From Promethearchaeota archaeon (lineage in GTDB: Archaea; Asgardarchaeota; Lokiarchaeia; Sigynarchaeales; SOKP01), in contig WJKD01000045.1 in NCBI GenBank assembly GCA_014729315.1, positions 1 through 28,525 on the forward strand: a DNA stretch of 28,525 nt. Direction: 5' to 3'. The translations under genes were made by a program, and so were the position numbers. The notes below the pieces were generated by a model. It did not search any database. It was not told the DNA's origin and saw nothing but the letters and a program-made list of their open reading frames with translations. This document shows, in pieces, positions 4,254-28,525 of the stretch; positions within the stretch are counted from its first letter, which is position 1; each line of letters opens with the position of its first letter.

Positions 4254-6260
4254 ATGAGCTCTAAATTTAAAATAGTATCTGAATTTGAACCTAAAGGGGA
4301 CCAACCTACTGCTATTGAGACCCTAGCGAAGAACATTAAAAATGGAAAAAAATTTCTTACTCTTCTTGGTGCTACTGGAACTGGTAAGACCTTTTCAATT
4401 GCTAATATAATCGAAGCTATCAATAAACCCACCTTAGTAATGGCTCCAAATAAGACCCTGGCTGCTCAGCTCTATAACGAATTAAAAGAACTATTTCCAA
4501 ATAACGCAGTTCATTATTTTGTGTCATATTACGATTATTATCAACCAGAAGCGTATATGCCCACATCAGGTATGTATATTGAGAAAGATTTTAGTGTTAA
4601 CGAAGAAATTGAGAAATTGCGTTTGGCTTCGGCGCATGCAGTTAGAACTAGAAAGGATGTAATTATTGTTGCTACAGTTTCATGCATTTACGGTATCGGA
4701 AATCCCGAGGAATGGTCAGCAGTATCATTGAATCTCGAAGTTGGTCAAACTATTGATCGATCAGATATTATTAAAGGATTAATAAAGATGAATTATGAGA
4801 GAAAAAGTGTCGAATTTAAACAAGGCATTGTGAGAGTCAAAGGAGATATTGTAGATATTTTTCCTGCGTATCTTGATACTGCTATACGAATCTCTCTTTT
4901 TGGCGATGAAATAGAATCTATACATGAAATTCATCCTATATCAAATAAAGTCTTAAAAAAATTACCGAATTGTCGAATATTTCCTGCTACCCACTTCATC
5001 ATCCCTGAAGCAAATAAAATCAGAGCTCTCGAATCAATCGCGGCCGAGCTTAATAAACAAATTCAACATTTTAAACAAGAAGGTAAATACGCAGAGGCTC
5101 AACGCATAGAAAGGAGAGTTAAATTTGACCTCGAGATGATGAGAGAAATGGGTTATTGTAAAGGAATAGAGAATTATTCAAGGCATTTAGATGGGAGACA
5201 ACCAGGAACACCACCTATGACCTTAATTGATTATTTTCCAGATGATTTTCTAATTGTGGTTGACGAATCTCACATAACTATTCCACAAATACATGGAATG
5301 ATAGGCGGCGATCGTTCTCGTAAGAAGAACCTGGTACAATTTGGATGGCGCTTGCCCAGTGCTTTTGATAATCGACCTTTAACTTTTGATGAATGGGAAA
5401 ATAAAATAAAAAACATAATATTTATGAGTGCGACTCCTGGTGATTACGAATTAAAGAAAAGCGGAGGAGTTTCAGCAGAACAAATTATTAGACCAACTGG
5501 TTTGGTTGATCCTACGATCGAGATAAGGCCTGCCAAAAATCAGATTGACGATTTGCTTGAAGAAATTCGAAAAGTTGTTGAGAGAAAAAATAGGGTTTTA
5601 ATAACCACTTTAACAAAACGGATGGCTGAAGATATTGCGGAATATTACGCTGATTTAGGTGTAAAAATTGCATACTTACATAGTGAAGTAGATACTGTGG
5701 AACGTTTTGAAATTTTACGACAACTAAGAGAAGGAACATACGATGTACTGGTAGGGATAAATTTACTTAGAGAAGGATTGGATTTACCTGAAGTGGAATT
5801 AGTAGCCATATTAGACGCAGATAAACTTGGATTTCTTCGAGATACGCGATCACTTATACAGACTATAGGTAGAGCTTCCAGAAATGTTATGGGAAGGGCG
5901 ATTCTCTATGGAGATAGAATATCACCTGCCATGAGAGCTGCAATAAGAGAAACAAATAGGAGAAGAGATAAACAAATTGCTTTTAACGAAGAAAATCACA
6001 TCACCCCTCAAACAATAAAGAAGAATATTTTAAAATCTTTATCGGAAGAACAAGAATTAAAAGAGAAAGAAGTTAGAAGGCTTAAGAAATCCGTCAAAAG
6101 AAAAATAATAGAATTAGAGGAGAAAGGAGATGTTGACATTATGGTACAATACTTAGAGAATAAAATGTATCTTGCAGCAAAAGAATTAAGATTTGAAGAT
6201 GCTGCTTATTTAAGGGATAAAATCCAAGATATCAAGCAAACTTATGAAATTAAAGCGTAG
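4254..6260 (+). CDS. uvrB: UvrABC excinuclease subunit B
   Basis: Damage-verifying helicase-like ATPase of nucleotide excision repair; it is loaded by UvrA and then recruits UvrC for incision. Walker A is GATGTGKT (39-46). The Tyr-rich beta-hairpin that clamps DNA is present (YYDYYQPEAY, 92-101). DESH (337-340) is the Walker B/motif II, SATPG (392-396) is motif III, and GRASRN is motif VI. The C-terminal UVR coiled-coil that contacts UvrA/UvrC is intact (about 628-664). The length of 668 aa is normal. UvrB is a bacterial family found patchily in archaea, so an old transfer from bacteria is likely. It sits 41 bp upstream of uvrA in the same direction, so co-transcription is expected. No uvrC is in the window. 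The start at ATG 4254 gives the usual family N-terminus (F-x-P-x-G-D-Q-P-x-A-I). Confidence 0.97.
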   Translation: MSSKFKIVSEFEPKGDQPTAIETLAKNIKNGKKFLTLLGATGTGKTFSIANIIEAINKPTLVMAPNKTLAAQLYNELKELFPNNAVHYFVSYYDYYQPEAYMPTSGMYIEKDFSVNEEIEKLRLASAHAVRTRKDVIIVATVSCIYGIGNPEEWSAVSLNLEVGQTIDRSDIIKGLIKMNYERKSVEFKQGIVRVKGDIVDIFPAYLDTAIRISLFGDEIESIHEIHPISNKVLKKLPNCRIFPATHFIIPEANKIRALESIAAELNKQIQHFKQEGKYAEAQRIERRVKFDLEMMREMGYCKGIENYSRHLDGRQPGTPPMTLIDYFPDDFLIVVDESHITIPQIHGMIGGDRSRKKNLVQFGWRLPSAFDNRPLTFDEWENKIKNIIFMSATPGDYELKKSGGVSAEQIIRPTGLVDPTIEIRPAKNQIDDLLEEIRKVVERKNRVLITTLTKRMAEDIAEYYADLGVKIAYLHSEVDTVERFEILRQLREGTYDVLVGINLLREGLDLPEVELVAILDADKLGFLRDTRSLIQTIGRASRNVMGRAILYGDRISPAMRAAIRETNRRRDKQIAFNEENHITPQTIKKNILKSLSEEQELKEKEVRRLKKSVKRKIIELEEKGDVDIMVQYLENKMYLAAKELRFEDAAYLRDKIQDIKQTYEIKA

Positions 6261-6301
6261 AATTAAATTTATTTCATTTACTGGAAAAAAATAAGCTAAT
6301 T

Positions 6302-9178
6302 ATGACTGAAAATTTAATTATTAAAGGAGCAAGACAAAATAATCTAAAAAATATTGATGTTATCATCCCCCGAAATAAGCTAGTTATTGTTACTGGCGTA
6401 AGCGGAAGCGGGAAATCAAGTTTGGCTATGGATACTCTATTCGCAGAAGGACAAAGAAGGTTCTTGGAATCCTTATCAAGCTATGCTAGACAATTTCTGG
6501 GAGAGATGGATAAACCCGATGTAGATTCTATAGAAGGTTTGTCGCCTGCCATTGCCATAGAACAAAAGGCTCTTTCAAAAAATCCAAGAAGTACAGTTGG
6601 AACCGTAACTGAAATCTATGATTATTATCGACTTTTATATGCGAACATAGGAGTTCCACATTGTCCTAAATGTGGGAAAGAAATAAAACCTCAAACTCCT
6701 CAGCAAATTATTGATCAAGTTTTAGATTCTCTTGACGAAGGACAAAAATTTATGGTCAAAGCTCCAGTAATAAGAGATCGAAAAGGCGAATACAAGGATT
6801 TACTTCAAGATCTCAAAAAGAAAGGATATCTTAGAGTTGAAGTAGACGGAATTCAATATACTCTCGACGAAGAAATTGAAATGGAAAAACATGTAAAGCA
6901 TAACATTAATGTTGTAGTCGATAGGCTCGTAATGAAAAAAAATATAAGAACAAGATTAGCCGATTCGGTTGAGACCTCACTTAATCTGTCTGATGGAATA
7001 TTAATTATTGAAATTATCGATAATGGGTTATTGACTTTTTCCGAACATTTTGCGTGTATCGATTGTGGAATTTCAATCCCCCCTTTGGATCACAAGATGT
7101 TTTCCTTCAACATTCCACACGGTAGTTGTAAATACTGCAACGGATTGGGAAGCGTATTAGAATTTGATCAATCCTTGATTTTCGGAGATGACTTGGAAGT
7201 TCCTATAGAAGAGAGTCAAATAAGAGATATACCTGGTTTTGGTACTTTAAACGGATATTCTTGGCAAATTCTGAAGCAAGTCTCTCAAAAATATGGATTC
7301 GACACTAAAAAGACACCTATAAAGTATATAGATCCAGATAAACTTGAAATTTTACTTTATGGCTCTGGAGATGAGGAAATAGAATTTCATTTACAGAGTG
7401 ATAAGTACGAAACCAAATATAAGAAATATAACAATAAATCTTCTTATAAATTTAGTAAGCCCTTTGAGGGAATTATCCCAATGCTTCATAGGAGATATAT
7501 GGAAACCAGCTCAGAACGAGGTCGAGAAATTTACGAAAGTTTTATGAATAAAATACATTGTCCTCAATGTAAAGGCCAGAGATTAAAACCCGAAAGTAGA
7601 GCAGTATCTATTAATGGGTTAAATATAGCTGAATTATCTAATCTTTCTGTTGCTGAGTCAATCAGATTTTTCGAAGGTTTAGCATTAGAAGATACGCAAC
7701 AAAAAATTGTTAAAGAAGTACTAAAAGAAATAAGAGAGAGGTTGTCTTTCTTAAATAATGTTGGATTGGATTATATACAATTGATAAGAAATTCAGACAC
7801 TTTATCAGTTGGCGAAGCAGAAAGAATTCGATTAGCTACTCAATTAGGTTCGAGTCTAGTTGGTGTTTTATATGTATTAGACGAACCCTCGGTGGGACTT
7901 CACGCTCGCGATATAGACCGCCTCATTAAAATGTTAAAAAAACTACGAGATTTAGGAAATACCGTCGTAGTTGTTGAGCATGACGATAAGATTATTAAAA
8001 ATGCTGATTATATAATTGACTTGGGTCCTTTAGCAGGTGAGCATGGAGGGGAAGTCGTAGCGCATGGTAATTTAGATGTAATCAAAAAATCTGATTCCAT
8101 TACTGCTAAATATTTGACGGGCAAGAAGAAAATTAAGATTCCTAAGGAAAGAAGAAATCATAAAAATTATTTCATTGAAATTGAAGGAGCGAGAGAAAAT
8201 AATTTAAAAAATATTAAAGTTGAAATTCCTTTAGGTGTATTTACATGCGTTACGGGAGTATCTGGTGCGGGTAAAACAAGTCTAATTATTGATTGCCTTT
8301 ATAAAGGCTTACATAATGTTGTAAATACAAGGAGTTCAAAAGTCGTTACTGGTGATTTCGACAAAATCCTGGGTTCCGAGCATATAGATAAGATTATTAA
8401 TATTGACCAATCTCCTATTGGTAGGACTCCTAGATCTGTACCCGCGACCTATACAAAGGCTTTCGATTATATAAGAGAGATCTTTGAGGCCTTACCAGAT
8501 GCAAGAGAACGAGGTTATAAAAAGGGAAGGTTTAGTTTTAATACTAAAGCGGGTAGATGTAAAAAATGTAAAGGAAGAGGTTATATTCTAAAAGAGATGT
8601 ATTTTCTTCCTGATGTTTATATCAGATGTGATTTATGTAACGGAAATCGTTATAACGATGAAACTTTGGATATTACATATCGTGGAAAAAATATTGCTGA
8701 AGTTTTAAACATGACTTTTGAGGGTGCGCTTAGTTTTTTTGATAGTTTTCCAAAACTTAAAAAGACTCTCAAAACTGTTGTAGATGTTGGACTGGGATAT
8801 CTGGAACTTGGTCAATCATCAACTACTTTAAGTGGAGGAGAATCTCAAAGATTAAAAATCGCTCGCGAATTAAGAAAAAAAAGTACCGGTAATACTCTTT
8901 ATATTTTAGACGAACCTACCACAGGATTAAGTGCTTACGATATCGAAATCTTATTAAAAGTATTACAAAGACTTGTTGATAAAGGGAACACAGTTATTAT
9001 TATAGAGCATAATATGGAAATAATAAAATCTGCCGATTATATTATTGATTTAGGTCCCGAGGGAGGCGAAAAAGGGGGAGATGTTGTTATTGTAGGTAAA
9101 CCCGAAGAAATTATTAAATATAAGGATTCTTACACCGGACAATTCCTAAAGGACTATTTAAATAGTGTGGAAAAATGA
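6302..9178 (+). CDS. uvrA: UvrABC excinuclease subunit A
   Basis: Twin-ABC ATPase that finds bulky DNA lesions and loads UvrB. First Walker A is at 32-39 (GVSGSGKS), second at 652-659 (GVSGAGKT). Zinc-binding Cys pairs are visible at C121/C124, C252/C255, C276/C279 and C420/C423. The second-half zinc module is C753/C756/C776/C779. The C-terminal ABC signature is a normal LSGGE (843-847) followed by LDEP (869-872). The N-terminal signature reads LSVGE (501-505) instead of LSGGE, followed by a normal VLDEP (525-529). The length of 958 aa is typical. It is probably translated from the uvrB transcript. An intact reading frame with every other motif suggests a working protein; the G503V change may slow ATP turnover at one composite site. 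Bacterial-type family, probably acquired together with uvrB. Confidence 0.96.
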   Translation: MTENLIIKGARQNNLKNIDVIIPRNKLVIVTGVSGSGKSSLAMDTLFAEGQRRFLESLSSYARQFLGEMDKPDVDSIEGLSPAIAIEQKALSKNPRSTVGTVTEIYDYYRLLYANIGVPHCPKCGKEIKPQTPQQIIDQVLDSLDEGQKFMVKAPVIRDRKGEYKDLLQDLKKKGYLRVEVDGIQYTLDEEIEMEKHVKHNINVVVDRLVMKKNIRTRLADSVETSLNLSDGILIIEIIDNGLLTFSEHFACIDCGISIPPLDHKMFSFNIPHGSCKYCNGLGSVLEFDQSLIFGDDLEVPIEESQIRDIPGFGTLNGYSWQILKQVSQKYGFDTKKTPIKYIDPDKLEILLYGSGDEEIEFHLQSDKYETKYKKYNNKSSYKFSKPFEGIIPMLHRRYMETSSERGREIYESFMNKIHCPQCKGQRLKPESRAVSINGLNIAELSNLSVAESIRFFEGLALEDTQQKIVKEVLKEIRERLSFLNNVGLDYIQLIRNSDTLSVGEAERIRLATQLGSSLVGVLYVLDEPSVGLHARDIDRLIKMLKKLRDLGNTVVVVEHDDKIIKNADYIIDLGPLAGEHGGEVVAHGNLDVIKKSDSITAKYLTGKKKIKIPKERRNHKNYFIEIEGARENNLKNIKVEIPLGVFTCVTGVSGAGKTSLIIDCLYKGLHNVVNTRSSKVVTGDFDKILGSEHIDKIINIDQSPIGRTPRSVPATYTKAFDYIREIFEALPDARERGYKKGRFSFNTKAGRCKKCKGRGYILKEMYFLPDVYIRCDLCNGNRYNDETLDITYRGKNIAEVLNMTFEGALSFFDSFPKLKKTLKTVVDVGLGYLELGQSSTTLSGGESQRLKIARELRKKSTGNTLYILDEPTTGLSAYDIEILLKVLQRLVDKGNTVIIIEHNMEIIKSADYIIDLGPEGGEKGGDVVIVGKPEEIIKYKDSYTGQFLKDYLNSVEK

Positions 9179-12367: not shown

Positions 12368-13537
12368 CTATAAGTTAATTGGGTATTTTCCATACTTTTG
12401 AACAGCATTAATCATTATTTTTTCCTTTTCTATATCGATTTCTGGATGAGAATGCGTAGGAGCTAATATAAATCTTCCACCAGGAGCAATGTGTTTAATT
12501 AATTTTTTGGTCTCCTCAATCACTTCTTCGGGTTTTGATCTTTCTGTAAGCGTATAATCAACATCAAGGTTTCCAATAATAGTGAGGTTATTGCCATGTT
12601 TTTCTTTTTCTTTAAATATATCTACGTTTGATGTAGGTTCGAAAGCGTGCGCACCATCAAATCCCCATTTAATAAAAAGATCGAACAATTTTGTGTTATC
12701 GCCGCAAGAATGAAGAATTGCTAAACCCCCTCTTTCGTGAATAGCTTCGCATAATTTGGTATAAGACGGTCCCCAGAACTTATCTAAAAGTTTAGGATTT
12801 ATTTGTGGACCTGATTTAAACGACATATCGTCACCCTTCATTATTACCTTAACTCCTGCGTCCATCATAGCCATAATTGTTTCGATACTAAATGATTCTA
12901 ATCTTTTAACGAAGTCCTTTATAAAGTCTGGCTTTTTTCTCATATAATAAGCGATTTTCTCTAGCCCCATGCTTGTAAACATAGTTTGAAATAATCCACC
13001 GTAAACATCACCAAATATACATATATTCTTACCAAAGTCGGATACTAATTTTTTATAGAATTTATAAGCTTGCTTTGCGGATTTTTCCTCATCAGGAAAA
13101 AATTCCCAATTTTCGTAATCTTCTGGCGATTTAATCATCGGTTTACGCCAATAATAAGTGGCATTTCCGTGAGAATCAAAAATAATATCATTATAGGAAC
13201 CCCAATCGTCCATAATCGTATCTTCATCAGGGAAATGGGAAAAAGCAAGGCCTAAAATAGACCATGCTGCGTCAAATCCGAGCTCAACAGCAGCTTCTAC
13301 GCCTAAACGAGCAGTATTTTTAACGCTTTTCTTAGCAATTAAGTTTCCTATTTTGCTCATTCCAAATTTTTTTAAAAAAAATTGTCCGTATCTACTATTT
13401 ATCAAATCAGCATCGGTTTTTTTTGGATATCCAATTACTTGATAAATAGGATGCAGATCGTATAAAATTGACATAGTAGGAACTTCATCTGGTTCGCTTC
13501 CAGATATAGTTGTAAAAATTCGTTCCATTGAGTTCAT
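12368..13537 (-). CDS. UroD-family cobalamin-dependent methyltransferase (MtaA/MtbA-like), zinc ligands partly retained
   Basis: TIM-barrel protein of the uroporphyrinogen decarboxylase superfamily, in the branch that moves methyl groups between corrinoid proteins and thiols or other acceptors. It starts M-N-S-M-E-R-I-F and contains the family landmark K-P-x-F (203-205) before the barrel end. LHSCGD places H276 and C278 where MtaA/MtbA enzymes bind zinc. The third ligand, usually Cys near the C-terminus, is not obvious; a His pair (H362, H364) lies there instead. The C-terminus KYGKYPINL matches the paralogue ending at 19061. True heme-pathway UroD is unlikely, given the corrinoid proteins nearby and the H-x-C motif. 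It is divergent from cca and opposite in strand to the other cluster members. The substrate cannot be told. Confidence 0.75.
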   Translation of the reverse strand: MNSMERIFTTISGSEPDEVPTMSILYDLHPIYQVIGYPKKTDADLINSRYGQFFLKKFGMSKIGNLIAKKSVKNTARLGVEAAVELGFDAAWSILGLAFSHFPDEDTIMDDWGSYNDIIFDSHGNATYYWRKPMIKSPEDYENWEFFPDEEKSAKQAYKFYKKLVSDFGKNICIFGDVYGGLFQTMFTSMGLEKIAYYMRKKPDFIKDFVKRLESFSIETIMAMMDAGVKVIMKGDDMSFKSGPQINPKLLDKFWGPSYTKLCEAIHERGGLAILHSCGDNTKLFDLFIKWGFDGAHAFEPTSNVDIFKEKEKHGNNLTIIGNLDVDYTLTERSKPEEVIEETKKLIKHIAPGGRFILAPTHSHPEIDIEKEKIMINAVQKYGKYPINL

Positions 13538-15320: not shown

Positions 15321-16460
15321 GTGGAAAAATATTTAGTCATGAACGATATGAAAAAAAAAGGAAGATCAAAAACTCTGGCACCGGCACAAAGAATGCTTAA
15401 AGCAATGGCTTTCCTCAAACCAGACCATGTACCCGTATTATTTTTTCCAGAATTTGATTTTATGGCTGATTTTGCAGGAGTAAAAGTAAAGGAATACTTG
15501 AATGATGTAGACTTACAAATTGAAAACGGAGAAAAATTTAAGAAGAGATTTCCAGATGCTTATGCGGCGGTATCGATCTACCAACCATATGCTACTGCTC
15601 AAGCTTTAGGATGCCCTATATCAGATCCCGAAGACGAAATACCTGCAGTCGCTGATCATGTTATTAAGAGCCCTAGTGAGATTGAGAAATTCAACATTCC
15701 CAATTCTGCGTGGGACCTTCCCGGAACTGGTGATTGGTTAAAAAAAATAGAATATTCGTTAGAGAGAGGAATTAAACCTGCGGGAATCGGAGAATTTGGT
15801 CCTCTCGAAGTTGCGGGACAAGTTTATGGCTACGATAAGTTTTTACTCCATCTGAGAAAAAAACCCGAATTAATGCATAAATTATTAGAAAAATGCACAG
15901 AATTTGTCATAAAGTTTCAAAAAGAATGGGCAGAATTAATTGGTGGTTTTGCAACGCTTATTCTTATTGCGGATCATGTAAGCGGATTTCTTAACAGAAA
16001 ACTTGTTGAAGAATTTTTTGAGCCTTATCATAAGCAACTTACATCCTCACTTAGAGAATTTACGGGTGGTATGTTTTATCATTCGGAAAATAGAAGTTAT
16101 CACTTCATCGAAAAAATAGGTGATTGGGGTTATTCCATGTTTCATGGACAAGAATGGGCTCCTGGTGGAGATTTAGTAAAGACTAAAGAAATTGTTTCAG
16201 ATTTAGAAAATAAATATACTTTAGTTGGACAAGTTCCCGGTCGAGATGTTATGCTTAGAGAGCCAGACGACAAGGTGGTTGAAAAAAAAATAATTGAAAA
16301 TATAAAAATATATGGACCAGGTAGTGGTTACGTGCTCTCAACGGGTGGAGGTGTCAATAGGGGAACTCCTTTAAGAAGACTTGATATGATGATAGAGCTT
16401 GCTAAAAAATATGGTAGTTACAAAACAAAAAAGAGATTAATAGATCCAGAAAAAGAATAA
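15321..16460 (+). CDS. UroD-family corrinoid-linked methyltransferase, divergent active site
   Basis: TIM-barrel member of the UroD/MtaA superfamily. The core starts with P-A-Q-R-M-L-K-A (21-28), equivalent to the opening of the other two paralogues, and K-P-E-L (181-184) is the usual mid-barrel landmark. Where MtaA-type enzymes have H-x-C, this one reads FYHSENRS: H254 is kept, but the Cys is Glu. The C-terminal ligand region is G-x-V-L-S-T-G-G-G-V-N-R-G-T-P, with no Cys. This argues against a thiol-activating zinc enzyme of the MtbA kind and leaves room for a substrate:corrinoid methyltransferase or O-demethylase role, as reported for some UroD-fold enzymes. It lies 24 bp before a corrinoid protein gene, so the two are probably partners. 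The GTG at 15321 is the longest start; ATG 15339 or 15348 is also plausible. Confidence 0.7.
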   Translation: MEKYLVMNDMKKKGRSKTLAPAQRMLKAMAFLKPDHVPVLFFPEFDFMADFAGVKVKEYLNDVDLQIENGEKFKKRFPDAYAAVSIYQPYATAQALGCPISDPEDEIPAVADHVIKSPSEIEKFNIPNSAWDLPGTGDWLKKIEYSLERGIKPAGIGEFGPLEVAGQVYGYDKFLLHLRKKPELMHKLLEKCTEFVIKFQKEWAELIGGFATLILIADHVSGFLNRKLVEEFFEPYHKQLTSSLREFTGGMFYHSENRSYHFIEKIGDWGYSMFHGQEWAPGGDLVKTKEIVSDLENKYTLVGQVPGRDVMLREPDDKVVEKKIIENIKIYGPGSGYVLSTGGGVNRGTPLRRLDMMIELAKKYGSYKTKKRLIDPEKE

Positions 16461-16484
16461 TTGAAAAATTGATGTGATGATAAA

Positions 16485-17099
16485 ATGAGTAAAGAACTGA
16501 TCGACGCTATGATTGATTTAGATGACGAAAAAGTTGTAGAAATTGTTTCCAATCAATTGAACAAAAGAAAACCATTGGAAATAATAGAGGATTTAAAGTC
16601 AGCTTTAACAAAAATAGGCGAATTATTCGACGATGAAGAATATTTTCTCTCTGATTTAATCATTGCCGCTGAAGCTTTTAAAGAAGCAAGTAAACTCATC
16701 GAGCCTCATTTTAAAAAGAAAACAAACCACAAAAGAGGTAAGATCGTAATCGGTACTGTTGAAGGAGATATGCACGACATTGGAAAAAATATCATTATTA
16801 CATTATTAAAGTCGGAGGGATTTAAGGTAATTGATCTTGGTATCGACGTGAGTCCGGAGAAATTTTTAGAAAGCGTAAAAGAGATTCAACCTGATATCGT
16901 TGGATTGTCTGGTCTACTTACGTCCTCTAAAGAACCGATGAAGAAAACAATTGAATTATTAAGAGAAAATTACGATGGAAAATTAATATTTGTTGTAGGA
17001 GGCGTAGCAATTAACGATGCTTGGATTTCTGATGTCGGAGCAGATTATGGTACTACTAATGCCGTAACGGGATTAAAGATTATTAACGAATTAGTCTAA
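16485..17099 (+). CDS. Corrinoid-binding methyl carrier protein (MtaC/MttC-like), copy 1
   Basis: Small cobalamin protein that carries a methyl group between methyltransferases. The N-terminal cap (about 1-80) is the four-helix B12-binding domain seen in MtaC, MttC and MetH. The Rossmann-like domain has D-x-H-x-x-G at 95-100; H97 is the lower axial cobalt ligand. It also has S-x-L (S142) and the G-G (172-173) that hold the nucleotide tail. At 204 aa it is the standard length for a single-domain corrinoid protein. It lies 24 bp downstream of a UroD-family methyltransferase. A second corrinoid gene follows after 82 bp. Whether it serves a methanol-, methylamine- or methoxy-type substrate cannot be told from sequence. 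Confidence 0.92.
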   Translation: MSKELIDAMIDLDDEKVVEIVSNQLNKRKPLEIIEDLKSALTKIGELFDDEEYFLSDLIIAAEAFKEASKLIEPHFKKKTNHKRGKIVIGTVEGDMHDIGKNIIITLLKSEGFKVIDLGIDVSPEKFLESVKEIQPDIVGLSGLLTSSKEPMKKTIELLRENYDGKLIFVVGGVAINDAWISDVGADYGTTNAVTGLKIINELV

Positions 17100-17113
17100 A
17101 AATAATTAGATTC

Positions 17114-17165
17114 AAAATATGTGAGTAAAATTTTAAATATTACAAAAAAATATATGAGTAAAATT
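17114..17165 (+). repeat. 19-bp direct repeat upstream of the second corrinoid gene
   Basis: A 19-bp unit (aaaatat, then G or A, then tgagtaaaatt) occurs at 17114-17132 and 17147-17165, with one mismatch, and the copies are offset by 33 bp. It fills most of the 82-bp gap between the two corrinoid genes. It could be a regulator site or a by-product of local duplication. Confidence 0.5.
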
Positions 17166-17181
17166 CAAAGGTATAAAAAAA

Positions 17182-17817
17182 ATGGATTTCGAAACATTAA
17201 CCGAACTTATAATTGAGTTGGAAGTTGACGATATTGCTGATGCCGTCAAAGAAGCATTAGATGAGGATAAGGACCCATTCGATGTGCTTAATGCCTTAAC
17301 AAAAGGAATGGACGAGGTCGGCCGAAGATATGAAGAGAAAGAATACTATTTAACTGAACTAGTATTAGCGGGAGAAACAATGAAGGAAGCGTTTAAAATA
17401 TTACAGCCCGCTTTAGCTGCTGCTGATAGGTCTCAAAGTAAAACAAAGGTGATTATCGCTACAGTAAAAGGAGATAATCATGATATCGGTAAGAATATTC
17501 TCAGTTCATTACTTCTGAGCTCTGGTTTTGAAGTTATTGATTTAGGAATGGATGTTGACGATCAAAGAATTGTTGAAAAAGTGAAAGAAACCAACGCAAG
17601 TATCGTTGCTTTAAGCTCGCTTCTCACAATGACGGTTGAAGAGATTAAAAATGTTCATGAGGCTTTAAATAAAGAGGGTCTCAGAGACAAAGTTAAGCTT
17701 ATTGTCGGGGGTGCTCCCTTAAATATGGAACTCGCTAAAAAGCTAGGTGCTGACGATTTTGCTGACGATGCAGTTGACGGTGTGAAACATATAAAAGCAT
17801 TAGCTGGAACAGAATAA
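17182..17817 (+). CDS. Corrinoid-binding methyl carrier protein, copy 2
   Basis: Paralogue of the upstream corrinoid protein with the same architecture: a helical cap (about 1-82) and a B12-binding Rossmann domain. D-x-H-x-x-G is at 98-103, with H100 as the expected cobalt ligand. S-S-L-L gives the S-x-L element (about 135-138), and V-G-G lies near 175-177. It is 211 aa and intact. The cap and the linker differ clearly from copy 1, so this is not a recent duplication; the two carriers may serve different methyltransferases. The T-rich tract after its stop (17824-17854) may end the transcript before the next methyltransferase gene. Confidence 0.92.
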   Translation: MDFETLTELIIELEVDDIADAVKEALDEDKDPFDVLNALTKGMDEVGRRYEEKEYYLTELVLAGETMKEAFKILQPALAAADRSQSKTKVIIATVKGDNHDIGKNILSSLLLSSGFEVIDLGMDVDDQRIVEKVKETNASIVALSSLLTMTVEEIKNVHEALNKEGLRDKVKLIVGGAPLNMELAKKLGADDFADDAVDGVKHIKALAGTE

Positions 17818-17885
17818 TACTATTTTTTCATTTTTATTTTTACATTTTTTTGTGAGTATTTTTTAACTTTAGGTGGTAAATCCTA

Positions 17886-19061
17886 ATGAATTGTAGAGAA
17901 AGAATATTTACTGCTTTAAATCTTGAAGAACCAGATAGAGTTCCCACACATTTAATATTGATAGATGCAAATAATGTTGATAAAATTCTCGGTAAACCCG
18001 TTGTGTCCGATTTTGATACAGTTGAACAAATTCAAGAAAATAATCCAGAAGGCTGGGTTGAAGAGCTTAGCAATTTAGTGGAAAGTGTTGAAACATCAGT
18101 TTTTTCTAGATGCGTGGAGGCAGCAATAGAAATTGGATTAGATTGTATGCAAGTTGGGATAATTCCGCTCCATTTCATTGATGATCCTCAAGATCAGCGT
18201 CTCTTGATGAAGGATATATTTGGAAGAATATGGGAGGCAAGAAATAATGAAGGAAATTTTAATCCTTATTATTTATACGGCACGATGAATACATTTGAAA
18301 AATGGCAGGATACAAAGCAAGCGATTGAAGATTCATATACTAATAAATATAAAAAATTTGTAAAGAAATTTTTTCGTCGAATTAATAAAAAGCACAAAGA
18401 TAAGATTTTTGTGGCTGTAACTAATGATTTAGCTGGAGTATTTGAAAGCGCCTCACAAGGCATGGGAATGACATACTACGCGAAAATGGTTCGAAAAAAG
18501 CCCAAATTTATCAAAGAAGTGCATGAGGTATACGCGCAATTTACCGCTGAGATATATAAAAGTTATATAGAAGCTGGTGCAGAATTATTTGTCGAATCTG
18601 GTGATTTAGCATATCATACAGGTCCAATGATGAGTCCTAAAAAATTCGAAGAATTATTATTACCTGCCTATCGAATTATCACCAATGCAGTTCACGAGAA
18701 TGGAGGAAAGATTATACTTCATACAGACGGACAAGTTACGCCACTTCTAGATTTTGTTGTCAGCTGTGGATTTGATGGTTTACAAAGTATGGAACCAACA
18801 GCGGGAGTAGATTTAGAACTCGTTAAAAAGAAAGTAGGAGATAAATTGTGTTTATGGGGAAATACTGACGTATCTCATGTTTTAGTTAATGGAACTAAAG
18901 AAGAAGTATACAATGCGGTCAAGTACGCAATTAAAACAGCGGGATCAGGAGGAGGATTTGTGGTTTCTGCCGCAAACATGCACCCTGGTGTGAATGTTCC
19001 CAATCTAAAATGGATGGTCGAAGCAACGCACAAGTATGGAAAGTATCCTATAAATCTCTAA
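17886..19061 (+). CDS. UroD-family methyltransferase (MtaA-like), zinc Cys replaced
   Basis: Paralogue of the minus-strand gene at 12368-13537. Both start M-N-x-x-E-R-I-F and finish with the same nonapeptide KYGKYPINL, and K-P-K-F (205-208) matches K-P-D-F there. At the zinc site this one reads LHTDGQ: H279 is kept, but Asp 281 replaces the Cys. The C-terminal segment is S-A-A-N-M-H-P-G-V with H366 and no Cys. It sits 68 bp after corrinoid gene 2. AGGTGG, 9 nt before the ATG, is a fair Shine-Dalgarno. A methyl-transfer role is inferred from the family and from adjacency to two corrinoid carriers. The Cys loss suggests a reaction different from zinc-thiol methylation. Heme-type UroD is again unlikely. 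Confidence 0.76.
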   Translation: MNCRERIFTALNLEEPDRVPTHLILIDANNVDKILGKPVVSDFDTVEQIQENNPEGWVEELSNLVESVETSVFSRCVEAAIEIGLDCMQVGIIPLHFIDDPQDQRLLMKDIFGRIWEARNNEGNFNPYYLYGTMNTFEKWQDTKQAIEDSYTNKYKKFVKKFFRRINKKHKDKIFVAVTNDLAGVFESASQGMGMTYYAKMVRKKPKFIKEVHEVYAQFTAEIYKSYIEAGAELFVESGDLAYHTGPMMSPKKFEELLLPAYRIITNAVHENGGKIILHTDGQVTPLLDFVVSCGFDGLQSMEPTAGVDLELVKKKVGDKLCLWGNTDVSHVLVNGTKEEVYNAVKYAIKTAGSGGGFVVSAANMHPGVNVPNLKWMVEATHKYGKYPINL

Positions 19062-24942: not shown

Positions 24943-26232
24943 TTACGGTTTTTTTATTATTGGATCTTCATTTTCATTCCAATTTACAGCAAAAAGAAAG
25001 TCTCTACTTGCTTCGTTTGTATATATTATTGGAAAGTTTCCTTTCTCTTCTATTTTTTTCGCAAAATTATCTAAGTACTCAAATTCAGGATAATAATAAT
25101 TTACTGGTCGATCGCTTTTCAAGCGCTTATTAATGTCCAGAGCTTTTGCTTGAAGCGTAAAACCTTTAATTTCGAAAAAATTTGGATTTGCTTTTTCAAT
25201 AATTTCTACATAATTTTCAATATATTTGTCTTGAATGTTCAAATCTTTAATAGCAGTTAAGCGTAAAAGAGTTCGACAATCTAATGAACTTAATAATTCA
25301 GTTGATTTCATAATCTTTTGCCAACCATTTTTAATCATTGGTCGGCAAATTTTTTTATAATTAAATTCATCTGGAGCTGGTAAGGTAAGATATAATTGAG
25401 ATGGCAAAGAATTTAAGGATTCGATTTTATTGGGCAATGTTCCATTTGTAACGATAAATGTGGTCATCCCTCTTTTTCTAAATTCCTCGACAAAATCAGA
25501 GATCTTTGGATAAAGCATAGGTTCTCCGTCAAGGGATATTGCTGCGTGATTCGGAGATGTCGCTTCAAAATGAGATTGCATAATCTCATCTGGAGTTGTT
25601 AATTCTCTGTTAATTAACAATTCAATTTCTTCTTTTGAACTAATACAACCTCTTATATCATCGTCCAACTTATAATGGGTATAATGATCGTTAATAGGGT
25701 AAATAAAATTCTGATTTTTTAACAAAGTGAGCGCTCTATCAATTTTATTTTTACTTGTACGAATTGATTTCGATAAGGTAGCAATAGAGTGAGCACCCTC
25801 GTTTAAAAGCATCGTATAAAGGATATCGTTCATAATTTCATAATTATCTAAATATCTTTTTAACGATAAATGATTTTTAATAATATTATTCTGATGGCGG
25901 AGCATTTCCTCTACCAATAACTCGGGATCGTCTGGTTCCACGCAGAATTCACTATTTACATTTCCTGATTCATTGTCTCTCCAACAAAAAACACATTGGT
26001 GGTTACAGAAAGGCAAGGCTGGTGTGTTTTGTAGACATCTGTGACTTTCGACTCCAAAAACTCCCTTGTAACAATTTCGATTTTCCCGTCCCGTCATTAA
26101 TCGTTGCTCTAACCAGTGACAAGGTTTAATGGCAGAATGTAAGTTGTTCCCTATTACTCTATAATTGGTTTTTATATAATTTTCTACGAATTCGTTTGTT
26201 ATTTTGTTGTCCGAAATATATTTACCAGCCAT
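24943..26232 (-). CDS. taw1: tRNA 4-demethylwyosine synthase Taw1 (TYW1-like radical SAM) with internal HTH-like insertion
   Basis: Radical SAM enzyme that forms the tricyclic imidazopurine base at G37 of tRNA-Phe from N1-methylguanosine and pyruvate. The radical SAM cluster motif is C-N-H-Q-C-V-F-C (C76, C80, C83) followed by W-R. Three upstream Cys (C38, C54, C66) match those that bind the second Fe-S cluster in archaeal TYW1. SLDGEP (233-238), the SAM-binding region, and V-T-N-G-T (261-265) follow. At 429 aa it is about 80-120 longer than usual. The excess lies at about 120-200, between D-D-P-E-L-L-V and the helix before S-L-D-G-E-P, and resembles a winged helix. Start ATG 26232; no strong Shine-Dalgarno. 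Enzyme call is secure. Confidence 0.93.
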   Translation of the reverse strand: MAGKYISDNKITNEFVENYIKTNYRVIGNNLHSAIKPCHWLEQRLMTGRENRNCYKGVFGVESHRCLQNTPALPFCNHQCVFCWRDNESGNVNSEFCVEPDDPELLVEEMLRHQNNIIKNHLSLKRYLDNYEIMNDILYTMLLNEGAHSIATLSKSIRTSKNKIDRALTLLKNQNFIYPINDHYTHYKLDDDIRGCISSKEEIELLINRELTTPDEIMQSHFEATSPNHAAISLDGEPMLYPKISDFVEEFRKRGMTTFIVTNGTLPNKIESLNSLPSQLYLTLPAPDEFNYKKICRPMIKNGWQKIMKSTELLSSLDCRTLLRLTAIKDLNIQDKYIENYVEIIEKANPNFFEIKGFTLQAKALDINKRLKSDRPVNYYYPEFEYLDNFAKKIEEKGNFPIIYTNEASRDFLFAVNWNENEDPIIKKP

Positions 26233-26391: not shown

Positions 26392-26400
26392 ATACCATTA

Positions 26401-26430: not shown

Positions 26431-26470
26431 ACCGTCAAGCTATCGGGTTTCCCGTCAAGCTATCGGGTTT
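26431..26470. repeat. 20-bp tandem repeat overlapping the tnpB stop codon
   Basis: Two adjacent 20-bp units (26431-26450 and 26451-26470) differ only in the first base; the shared core is ccgtcaagctatcgggttt. Because 20 is not a multiple of 3, the same DNA is read in two frames: it encodes K-P-D-S-L-T-G once and then N-P-I-A and stop. Confidence 0.85.
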
Positions 26471-28525
26471 TCGGGTGTTTTTTCTCATTTTTAGGTTGGG
26501 AGTGGATAGATCGACGGTTTGCGGGGCAAGAAGAATCTTGTTTTTGCGCGCACCGTTTTTCTCCTGAAAATAGCTGAAAAAGTCAGTGGGGTTCGCGTCA
26601 GGATAGCGGCGCTTATTCCCTTCGGCGTCGGCTCTGCGGTTTGCATTGAACCATTTTCTGGTGGTTTTATCGAATGTACGCATGATGTTAAAGGCTCCGT
26701 TTGCGTCGGAATGGATGTAAAGCGCTTGGTCGTTCGGGAGGGGGACTTTAAACAGTCCTCGGGCGTTGTAAGGATCTCCCGTTGCGGGAAACATCGTTGG
26801 ACCGCGAATTCCTAACGGTTCGTCGACTTTTCCAAGTCGCTCTTCGTGGTAGGCGGAGCGAACCGAAGTATAGGGTTCCAGCATGGTGTAAACCTTGATT
26901 TCGACGAGGTTGGCGTTGTATTTAATCCGCTCGATAAGCAACGCGACGGGCGTTAAGTGCCAATATTGGTTGAACTTGCGGGCGAGGTTCGAGTTTTTCC
27001 AGCCTTTCTTGTAGCCGAGCACGATAGTGCCGATGCGGTTGTCGAGGCAATAATCGACGAGGTGGCGGGCGATCTTTCGCAGTTGGTCTTTTACCCTGTG
27101 ATTTCTTTTAGCGTAAATGCGATTTGCTTTTTCGCGGGCTTCTTTGTTTATCGACAAGACCTTTTGGTATTGCTCTCGCTTCGATATCCCCGAAAGCTCG
27201 GAAATCAACAGGTTTAGATACCTAATCTTGCGCTCGGTTTTCTCGATGTTGTATTTTAAACAAGATACGTAATACTTTTTGTCGTGTTCAGCGTCGAGGG
27301 CTCTTTTCAAGTCTCTTGCGTGTGCTAAACGCTTGGCGAGTTCGCTACACTTTTTTACTTGTTCCTTGAGCTTCTTGAAGTGCTTATGCTGGGGTTTCCA
27401 TCGGTCGGTACGACATATCTCTTCCCACAAAAATCCTTCGGGGAGCTTGCTATAATAGCGGTAATCTACGTCGTCTATAAACTTTTGTTTTTGCGCTTTT
27501 GCGGCGTCAAGGACGGGCTTTTCTCTATGCTCGTAGTGGTAGATGAGGTGGTTGGTGATGTCGAGCTTGCGTTGAGTTTTCTGCCCGTGAGTTATAAACA
27601 AATGGTTGGCTCGCTTAATCCGTCCTCCCCGATACAAAAGCGGGGTGTCTCCCGCGTTGCTTACGGCTGTCGAGAGGATGGAAAGTCCTAAGTCGATTGC
27701 CACGCATTTGGATGGGTCTAACTCGTAATTAAGGTCTTTTTTGCGAACATAGGTGATGTTCAAGTTGTACTCGTTGCTATTTCCGATAGGGTTGATTTCG
27801 GCGGTGCGGAAACTACTTAAAAACTGCTCGATTGCCCATTCTTTAAATCGTTCCCGCCCCATTTCAAGTAGCTTCTCGAATAAGAAGGGGTCTCGCTTGT
27901 CGTATTGCGGGAGAAGGCGGAATCTAATGGGCGGTAAATTGTCGTGGTGCCCGTTCGGAAATCGAAACTCTGAAGTGGCGGAAAGAAACGATTTTTTCCG
28001 GTTGTAATGGAGTCGGAACATGTCCTTAAGATGTTGTTCGAAGTATTTGGTTCTTAAGAGGGTACCGCTGTCGTATTGGACGAGCCACACGCCGTCGGAA
28101 GGCTTATACGCTGGAAGCATGGGGCGATCCGGTTCCTTTCCCTTTTCTCGTTCTCTAAAATATCGATCCATGCTTTTCACGTAGCCGTCCCACACGTCGC
28201 AAAATTTCTTAGTGACGTTCTGGGCGACTTTTGCGAGTCCGATGTTTCTGTAGGAGTCGAGATGTTTAGCTAAAGTGAGCAAATTGTATTTGAAGTCGAG
28301 CGATTTTAACCCTATTCTGGATTCGAGGAACTGCGTGAATTCTTTTAGAATCTCGTTCAAACTGACTTTGCGTGCGATTTCGGTATCTCGAAACACCTGA
28401 AGGAAAAGAAGGATAATGCGCAACCATATTTCCGAATATACGCTCTCGTAGAACGAGCGATAAGTGTATTCTTTTTTGTAATAAGAAAATGTTTTCTCTA
28501 AAAATTTAGCCCATCGTTTATTAAA
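26435..28525 (-). CDS. tnpB: Large TnpB (IS605 OrfB-type RNA-guided nuclease), 5' end beyond window
   Basis: RuvC-fold nuclease of the TnpB superfamily, ancestors of Cas12. Numbering is from the TTG at 28423. RuvC-I is V-A-I-D-L-G with D244. The RuvC-II strand reads I-V-L-G-Y-K-K-G-W-K (467-476), with Gly 470 where most TnpB have Glu. The likely replacement is E516 in M-L-E-P-Y-T-S, and RuvC-III is H-S-D-A-N-G-A (D573). No CxxC zinc finger lies between them; the segment resembles TnpB subfamilies with an E-x-Y-T-S motif. A long Lys/Arg-rich helical insert (about 280-440) separates RuvC-I and II. The frame stays open for 34 codons upstream to the window edge, so the protein is at least 696 aa, against about 370-450 for typical TnpB. 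The stop TGA lies inside a 20-bp tandem repeat. Base composition unlike its neighbours points to recent arrival. It should use an omegaRNA from its 3' end. Confidence 0.85.
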   Translation of the reverse strand, partial: FNKRWAKFLEKTFSYYKKEYTYRSFYESVYSEIWLRIILLFLQVFRDTEIARKVSLNEILKEFTQFLESRIGLKSLDFKYNLLTLAKHLDSYRNIGLAKVAQNVTKKFCDVWDGYVKSMDRYFREREKGKEPDRPMLPAYKPSDGVWLVQYDSGTLLRTKYFEQHLKDMFRLHYNRKKSFLSATSEFRFPNGHHDNLPPIRFRLLPQYDKRDPFLFEKLLEMGRERFKEWAIEQFLSSFRTAEINPIGNSNEYNLNITYVRKKDLNYELDPSKCVAIDLGLSILSTAVSNAGDTPLLYRGGRIKRANHLFITHGQKTQRKLDITNHLIYHYEHREKPVLDAAKAQKQKFIDDVDYRYYSKLPEGFLWEEICRTDRWKPQHKHFKKLKEQVKKCSELAKRLAHARDLKRALDAEHDKKYYVSCLKYNIEKTERKIRYLNLLISELSGISKREQYQKVLSINKEAREKANRIYAKRNHRVKDQLRKIARHLVDYCLDNRIGTIVLGYKKGWKNSNLARKFNQYWHLTPVALLIERIKYNANLVEIKVYTMLEPYTSVRSAYHEERLGKVDEPLGIRGPTMFPATGDPYNARGLFKVPLPNDQALYIHSDANGAFNIMRTFDKTTRKWFNANRRADAEGNKRRYPDANPTDFFSYFQEKNGARKNKILLAPQTVDLSTPNLKMRKNTRKPDSLTGNPIA

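Follow-up and report, generated by a model that had tools for sequence, protein, structure and literature searches.

The TnpB protein of ISDra2 carries both the canonical RuvC-II glutamate and a zinc finger. It is 408 residues long, with a four-helix REC domain and without insertions of the kind described below, and the guide RNA and the 3' end of tnpB overlap (PMC10097598; PDB 8exa, 8h1j). For the alternative-glutamate (E-alt) branch of the family, Yoon et al. 2023 describe a catalytic glutamate shifted to a position six residues before the zinc finger, where models place it consistently in the pocket (PMC10711439). Fanzor1 and Fanzor2, which are eukaryotic or viral, share the E-alt site and are enlarged, PpFz1 having a RuvC insertion of about 100 residues (PMC11423790; PDB 9b0l). 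Cas12 effectors, which serve CRISPR immunity, are proposed to have gained recognition distal to the protospacer-adjacent motif through REC2 insertions or by dimerizing (PMC10097598), and some proteins are known to fall between TnpB and Cas12 in size (PMC8730458). The stretch analysed here, referred to as the window, is the entire 28,525-nucleotide (nt) contig WJKD01000045.1 of a probable Lokiarchaeon. It carries a large tnpB open reading frame (ORF) at 26435..28525 on the minus strand, the strand of every feature given below for this gene and its flank. This gene probably encodes the RNA-guided endonuclease of a tnpB-only element of IS200/IS605 type, a member of the E-alt branch that has been enlarged to about the size of Cas12 by helical additions.

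Family membership and active site

The window protein passes the curated cut-offs for Pfam OrfB_IS605 (PF01385; E 4.1e-13, 50 bits against a cut-off of 30.5) and for TIGR01766 (40.8 against 32), in agreement with an earlier note on this DNA that had called it a TnpB from its letters. The predicted model of its family has the WED-REC-WED-RuvC-TNB order and fold of ISDra2 TnpB. The ORF is open for 696 amino acids up to the contig end, a 662-residue version beginning at an internal TTG. Because the window is the whole contig, the ORF lacks its N-terminal part, and the full protein must exceed 696 residues, the figure that the note had given as a minimum. What remains corresponds to about residues 350–1065 of P0002, the closest full-length relative, a protein of 1,065 amino acids from a Candidatus Lokiarchaeota metagenome-assembled genome (MAG) that is 79% identical. 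Residues are numbered below in the 696-residue frame, with the numbers of the 662-residue frame used in the note in brackets.

The active site was compared in an alignment of 93 rows, a sample biased by collection through similarity, which comprises 73 proteins found by searching, 18 ordinary TnpBs of the same phylum, and the ORFs of genomes G149 and G156; P0003, P0023, P0027, P0032, and P0033 are incomplete. The RuvC-I aspartate D278 (D244; 27692..27694) is aspartate in all 93 rows, and the RuvC-III aspartate D607 (D573; 26705..26707) in all 88 that cover it. At the canonical RuvC-II position the window protein has glycine, G504 (G470; 27014..27016), as do 87 of the 88 relatives covering the site. 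The glutamate E550 (E516; 26876..26878), within the motif E-P-Y-T-S, is glutamate in all 89 rows with a letter there, among them the fragment P0023, which is poorly aligned at its end. The spacing from glycine to glutamate is 46–53 residues in a 63-row subset, P0003 excepted. All four assignments had been made in the earlier note, which named E516 as the candidate substitute, and all four hold; the last also matches the published E-alt position (PMC10711439). As judged from the sequence alignment, a D-E-D triad is retained with its glutamate at the E-alt position, and assignment of the window protein to the E-alt branch of TnpB is supported.

The note had also reasoned that close homologues with a normal glutamate would mark this copy as simply inactive. 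Only P0011 has the canonical glutamate, and it keeps the alternative one as well. This protein of 685 amino acids is the sole relative among the 88 with such a combination, and its sequence makes a four-carboxylate site possible.

Neither the shifted glutamate nor the missing zinc finger is special to the window protein, since both are common in ordinary TnpBs of about 400 amino acids. These too have glycine at the canonical site together with the alternative glutamate. The window protein has no CxxC pairs, as the note had stated, and hence none of the zinc finger motif of TnpB; CxxC is likewise absent from 15 of the 18 ordinary TnpBs of the phylum, the other three (L023, L026, and L037) having two each. 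A motif script run over 80 viral loci, some apparently near-duplicates, returned 57 ORFs of 285–473 amino acids, selected for the alternative glutamate, all of which have glycine at the canonical site and no CxxC. The zinc finger is thus not required in this branch. The ordinary E-alt proteins and the window protein share a glutamate just before the (former) zinc-finger position, the loss of the canonical glutamate, and an otherwise intact triad, although the published definition of E-alt includes the zinc finger (PMC10711439). By sequence, then, the shifted glutamate is the E-alt site already published and general in this branch, and its novelty is ruled out.

A nuclease-dead descendant of TnpB that uses its RNA guide for DNA binding or regulation, in the manner of TldR or Cas12m, would fit the loss of the canonical glutamate. 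The large additions could then serve binding, and Cas12m2 does protect without cutting double-stranded DNA (PMC10442227). This explanation is nevertheless improbable: no row that reaches these positions lacks either aspartate or the E-alt glutamate, and the loss of the canonical glutamate is shared by ordinary TnpBs that have the E-alt one.

Size and inserted regions

It is the architecture, unlike the active site, that is unusual. Compared with the ordinary TnpBs of the phylum, which are about 400 amino acids long and lack these expansions, P0002 has about 210 extra residues in REC, about 70 in WED, and about 140 between RuvC-I and RuvC-II, in addition to an N-terminal extension. The distance from the asparagine at the start of REC to a conserved glutamine is 41–45 residues in all 18 ordinary TnpBs, 90 in 21 rows of a sister family described below, and 251 in P0002. 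From the WED proline to the RuvC-I aspartate there are 82–85 residues in the 12 ordinary rows of the 63-row subset, 107–110 in the sister family, 156 in P0002, and 143 in the window protein. The RuvC-I aspartate and RuvC-II glycine are 90–92 residues apart in all 18 ordinary TnpBs, 206–218 in the sister family, 233 in P0002, 226 in the window, and 243 in the G156 protein. The earlier note had described a basic helical segment here, longer by about 100 residues. The insertion is present at about residues 310–470 (27116..27598), is basic (net +15), and is mostly helical in the predicted model of P0002, but the spacing of 226 against 90–92 puts its length at about 134 residues.

Few close relatives were found. 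Among 5.8 billion proteins the 696-residue query, with about 8,000 candidates scored, gave six matches including itself. Apart from P0002 these were P0003, a Candidatus Lokiarchaeota protein of 1,087 amino acids marked as partial, with its C-terminal part missing, and three ordinary TnpBs of 405–447 amino acids. A second search with residues 200–1065 of P0002, again with about 8,000 candidates scored, added one weak match. The size that the note had placed between TnpB and Cas12 is indeed greater than that of TnpB, but the close relatives, one of them still C-terminally cut at 1,087 residues, are Cas12-sized. No match to the window family was found at 1e-30 in 227 genomes from the phylum of a named Lokiarchaeota genome, with at most three candidates scored per genome among the matches listed. 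The window protein as query matched nothing in viral contigs, and a first contig scan of genomes with P0002 revealed no relative.

The TnpB core of P0002 begins near residue 167 in the predicted model. Upstream of about residue 128 P0002 and P0003 diverge, which raises the possibility that the extreme N-terminus is not part of a single conserved protein. N-terminal extensions differ between close relatives in two cases, residues 1–128 of P0002 against 1–425 of P0003, and P0009 against P0016; such extensions of large TnpBs may either be exchanged as modules or stem from fusion to genes upstream. In the 227 genomes no host gene matched the N-terminal part that is unique to P0003.

A sister family of 668–944 amino acids has a RuvC gap similar in size to that of the window family. 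When the 227 genomes were searched with P0002, mostly with three candidates scored per genome, 75 matched at 1e-8, mainly through frames of ordinary size, with larger ones in G149 and G156. The 839-residue G149 protein, in a search covering lengths of about 461–1,468 amino acids, gave 66 matches, 31 of at least 643 amino acids. A profile of 21 sister-family proteins scored 1.2e-70 or better in four of the 227 genomes (G131, G148, G149, and G150) and reached 1e-40 in 10, with at most four candidates scored per genome among the matches listed. Of a larger group of genomes from the phylum of a Clostridium, 398 were searched with at most two candidates scored, and five of them gave matches of 1e-34 to 8e-32, in frames of 315–452 amino acids. 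Decayed copies of large TnpBs also occur: one in G148 (L045, G148:C48) is broken and seemingly lacks much of REC, and in G156 (L044, G156:C378) a stop codon lies upstream of the long TnpB frame.

A tree built from 63 rows (394 columns after trimming) has a moderately supported branch that places the window protein with P0002 and P0003, the sister family, and the G156 protein together on one side (Shimodaira–Hasegawa-like approximate likelihood ratio test 89.4, bootstrap 86). Alignment of the RuvC inserts of the two families with hhalign did not show homology (probability 6.6%, E 0.0056). RuvC-I to RuvC-II gaps of 130–142 residues are also found in P0042, P0044, P0051, P0053–P0057, and P0069, of 162 in P0049, and of 189 in P0038. 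With such gaps in other proteins, some of them shorter than 510 amino acids, enlargement seems to have occurred more than once. A single origin of the insertion in the window and sister families found no support in the hhalign result, and the position of P0038 outside the tree group speaks against it.

We think it slightly less probable than loss of nuclease activity that the gene is decaying or fused, so that part of its length arose by chance, through read-through or through insertion into another gene, and does not represent functional protein. The unlike N-terminal extensions of the two pairs, the decayed G148 copy, and the stop upstream of the G156 frame all speak for such accidents. However, the REC and RuvC expansions are colinear across contigs (P0003 is 86% identical to P0002 across their shared part, and 569 of 696 aligned window residues are identical in P0002), and the G149 copy is intact, its entire 839-residue ORF lying within an element. 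The explanation retains its place for roughly the first 130–430 residues.

Element ends and the comparison with Cas12

Five sister-family copies share about 50–60 nt of non-coding sequence after the stop codon, ending in ...AATGCAT, after which the flanks differ. In G149 the element spans L046:3582-6324 (2,743 nt, with an uncertainty of one base), and TnpB is the one long ORF within it. The corresponding site is unoccupied in G148, G150, and G131, where the flanks match at 93–96% with no target-site duplication; the flanking motif was compared at two insertion sites. A defined right end without duplication is the pattern of IS200/IS605-type elements. At L130 (G131:C57), past the TnpB stop, the sister-family right end is closely followed by a second, diverged copy of it, a pattern suggestive of a tandem insertion of two elements.

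In the window, the sequence after the stop reads ...CAAAACGCAT where an AT-rich flank begins, and by analogy with the sister right end ...AATGCAT the segment 26400..26434 is taken as the putative right end. Near 26400, downstream of the TnpB stop, the GC content drops from 49% to 13%. GC at third codon positions (GC3) is 57% in the TnpB ORF against 24–30% in eight other genes of the contig; for the radical SAM gene of the host flank (24943..26232) the comparison is 0.26 against 0.57. Two identical 19-nt direct repeats lie at the 3' end of the ORF (26432..26470), and the protein shares its final 14 residues with P0002.

Several results weigh against a guided endonuclease on such an element. The left end of the window element lies beyond the contig, and with one DNA copy its boundaries are unproven. 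The 3' ends of the window and of a sister copy fold not clearly better than shuffled sequences (z −0.5 to −1.0) and match no Rfam family at the gathering threshold. Conservation of synonymous sites shows no clear rise at the 3' end, and an overlapping RNA signalled in this way was rejected. At 57.9 bits the protein falls below the cut-off of 100 for the NCBIfam family guided_TnpB (NF040570), and a single-sequence search of solved structures with the window protein gave no match. In the model of P0002 the N-terminus and the REC insertion are poorly predicted (block means of about 35–58).

Structural matches of the models include many Cas12 chains, several level with or above TnpB, and Fanzor2 as well. 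Whole-model Foldseek TM-scores by query length are low, 0.12–0.29 among the matches listed, which we attribute to the insertions and the poorly predicted parts. The matches to Cas12, the Cas12-like size of the relatives, weak PADLOC matches to Cas12f (E 2.1e-5), and the size intermediates known between the two families (PMC8730458) would suit a CRISPR-associated Cas12 effector whose array lies beyond the contig. The window family resembles REC2-bearing Cas12 (PMC10097598) in its helical additions to a TnpB-like core. It differs in having the E-alt glutamate. No CRISPR-like repeats occur in the window or at four sister loci, all on short contigs, and the sister copies lie on a mobile insertion sequence with a defined right end. 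A Cas12 effector is accordingly quite unlikely. Least credible is a prokaryotic Fanzor or pro-Fanzor, for which the shared E-alt site, the Fanzor2 matches, and the RuvC insertion of PpFz1 (PMC11423790) could be cited, but these proteins are defined by a RuvC-I DPG motif with the E-alt glutamate six residues before a zinc finger (PMC10711439), where the window protein has D-L-G and no CxxC.

Genomic setting and proposed function

The host is most likely a Lokiarchaeon, as the aIF5B encoded on the contig shows 79–84% identity to its counterparts in five named Lokiarchaeota MAGs (five of the seven loci found). At 15321-19061 two URO-D family genes flank two genes for B12-binding proteins, with a third URO-D gene at 12368-13537; together they resemble a Lokiarchaeal gene cluster for corrinoid methyltransferases. 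UvrA and UvrB homologues adjoin at 4254-9178 of this archaeal contig.

In the most likely mode of action, by analogy with ISDra2, a guide RNA derived from the 3' end of the tnpB transcript or element would be bound by TnpB, and the guide would be the DNA just past the right end. TnpB would cut the matching element-free site, and repair would then restore the element, which would in this way be retained. The enlarged REC domain and the helices between RuvC-I and RuvC-II would most likely add contacts to the guide RNA, the DNA, or a partner. They might read more of the guide-target duplex, as has been proposed for REC2 of Cas12 (PMC10097598). Alternatively they might interact with a partner, much as PpFz1 binds cyclophilin through its RuvC insertion (PMC11423790).

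No description of large Asgard TnpBs was found in a literature search that covered few subscription papers. It is conceivable, and we suggest it tentatively, that these proteins represent an Asgard lineage of transposon nucleases, as large as Cas12, in which REC2-like domains were gained independently of CRISPR, for longer target reading or for partner binding. Such a lineage would add large guided nucleases from Asgard archaea, and it would amount to a natural repeat of the expansion from TnpB to Cas12 without adaptive immunity. An enlarged TnpB apparently still on an insertion sequence would uncouple the gain in size from CRISPR and make the proposal for REC2 testable.
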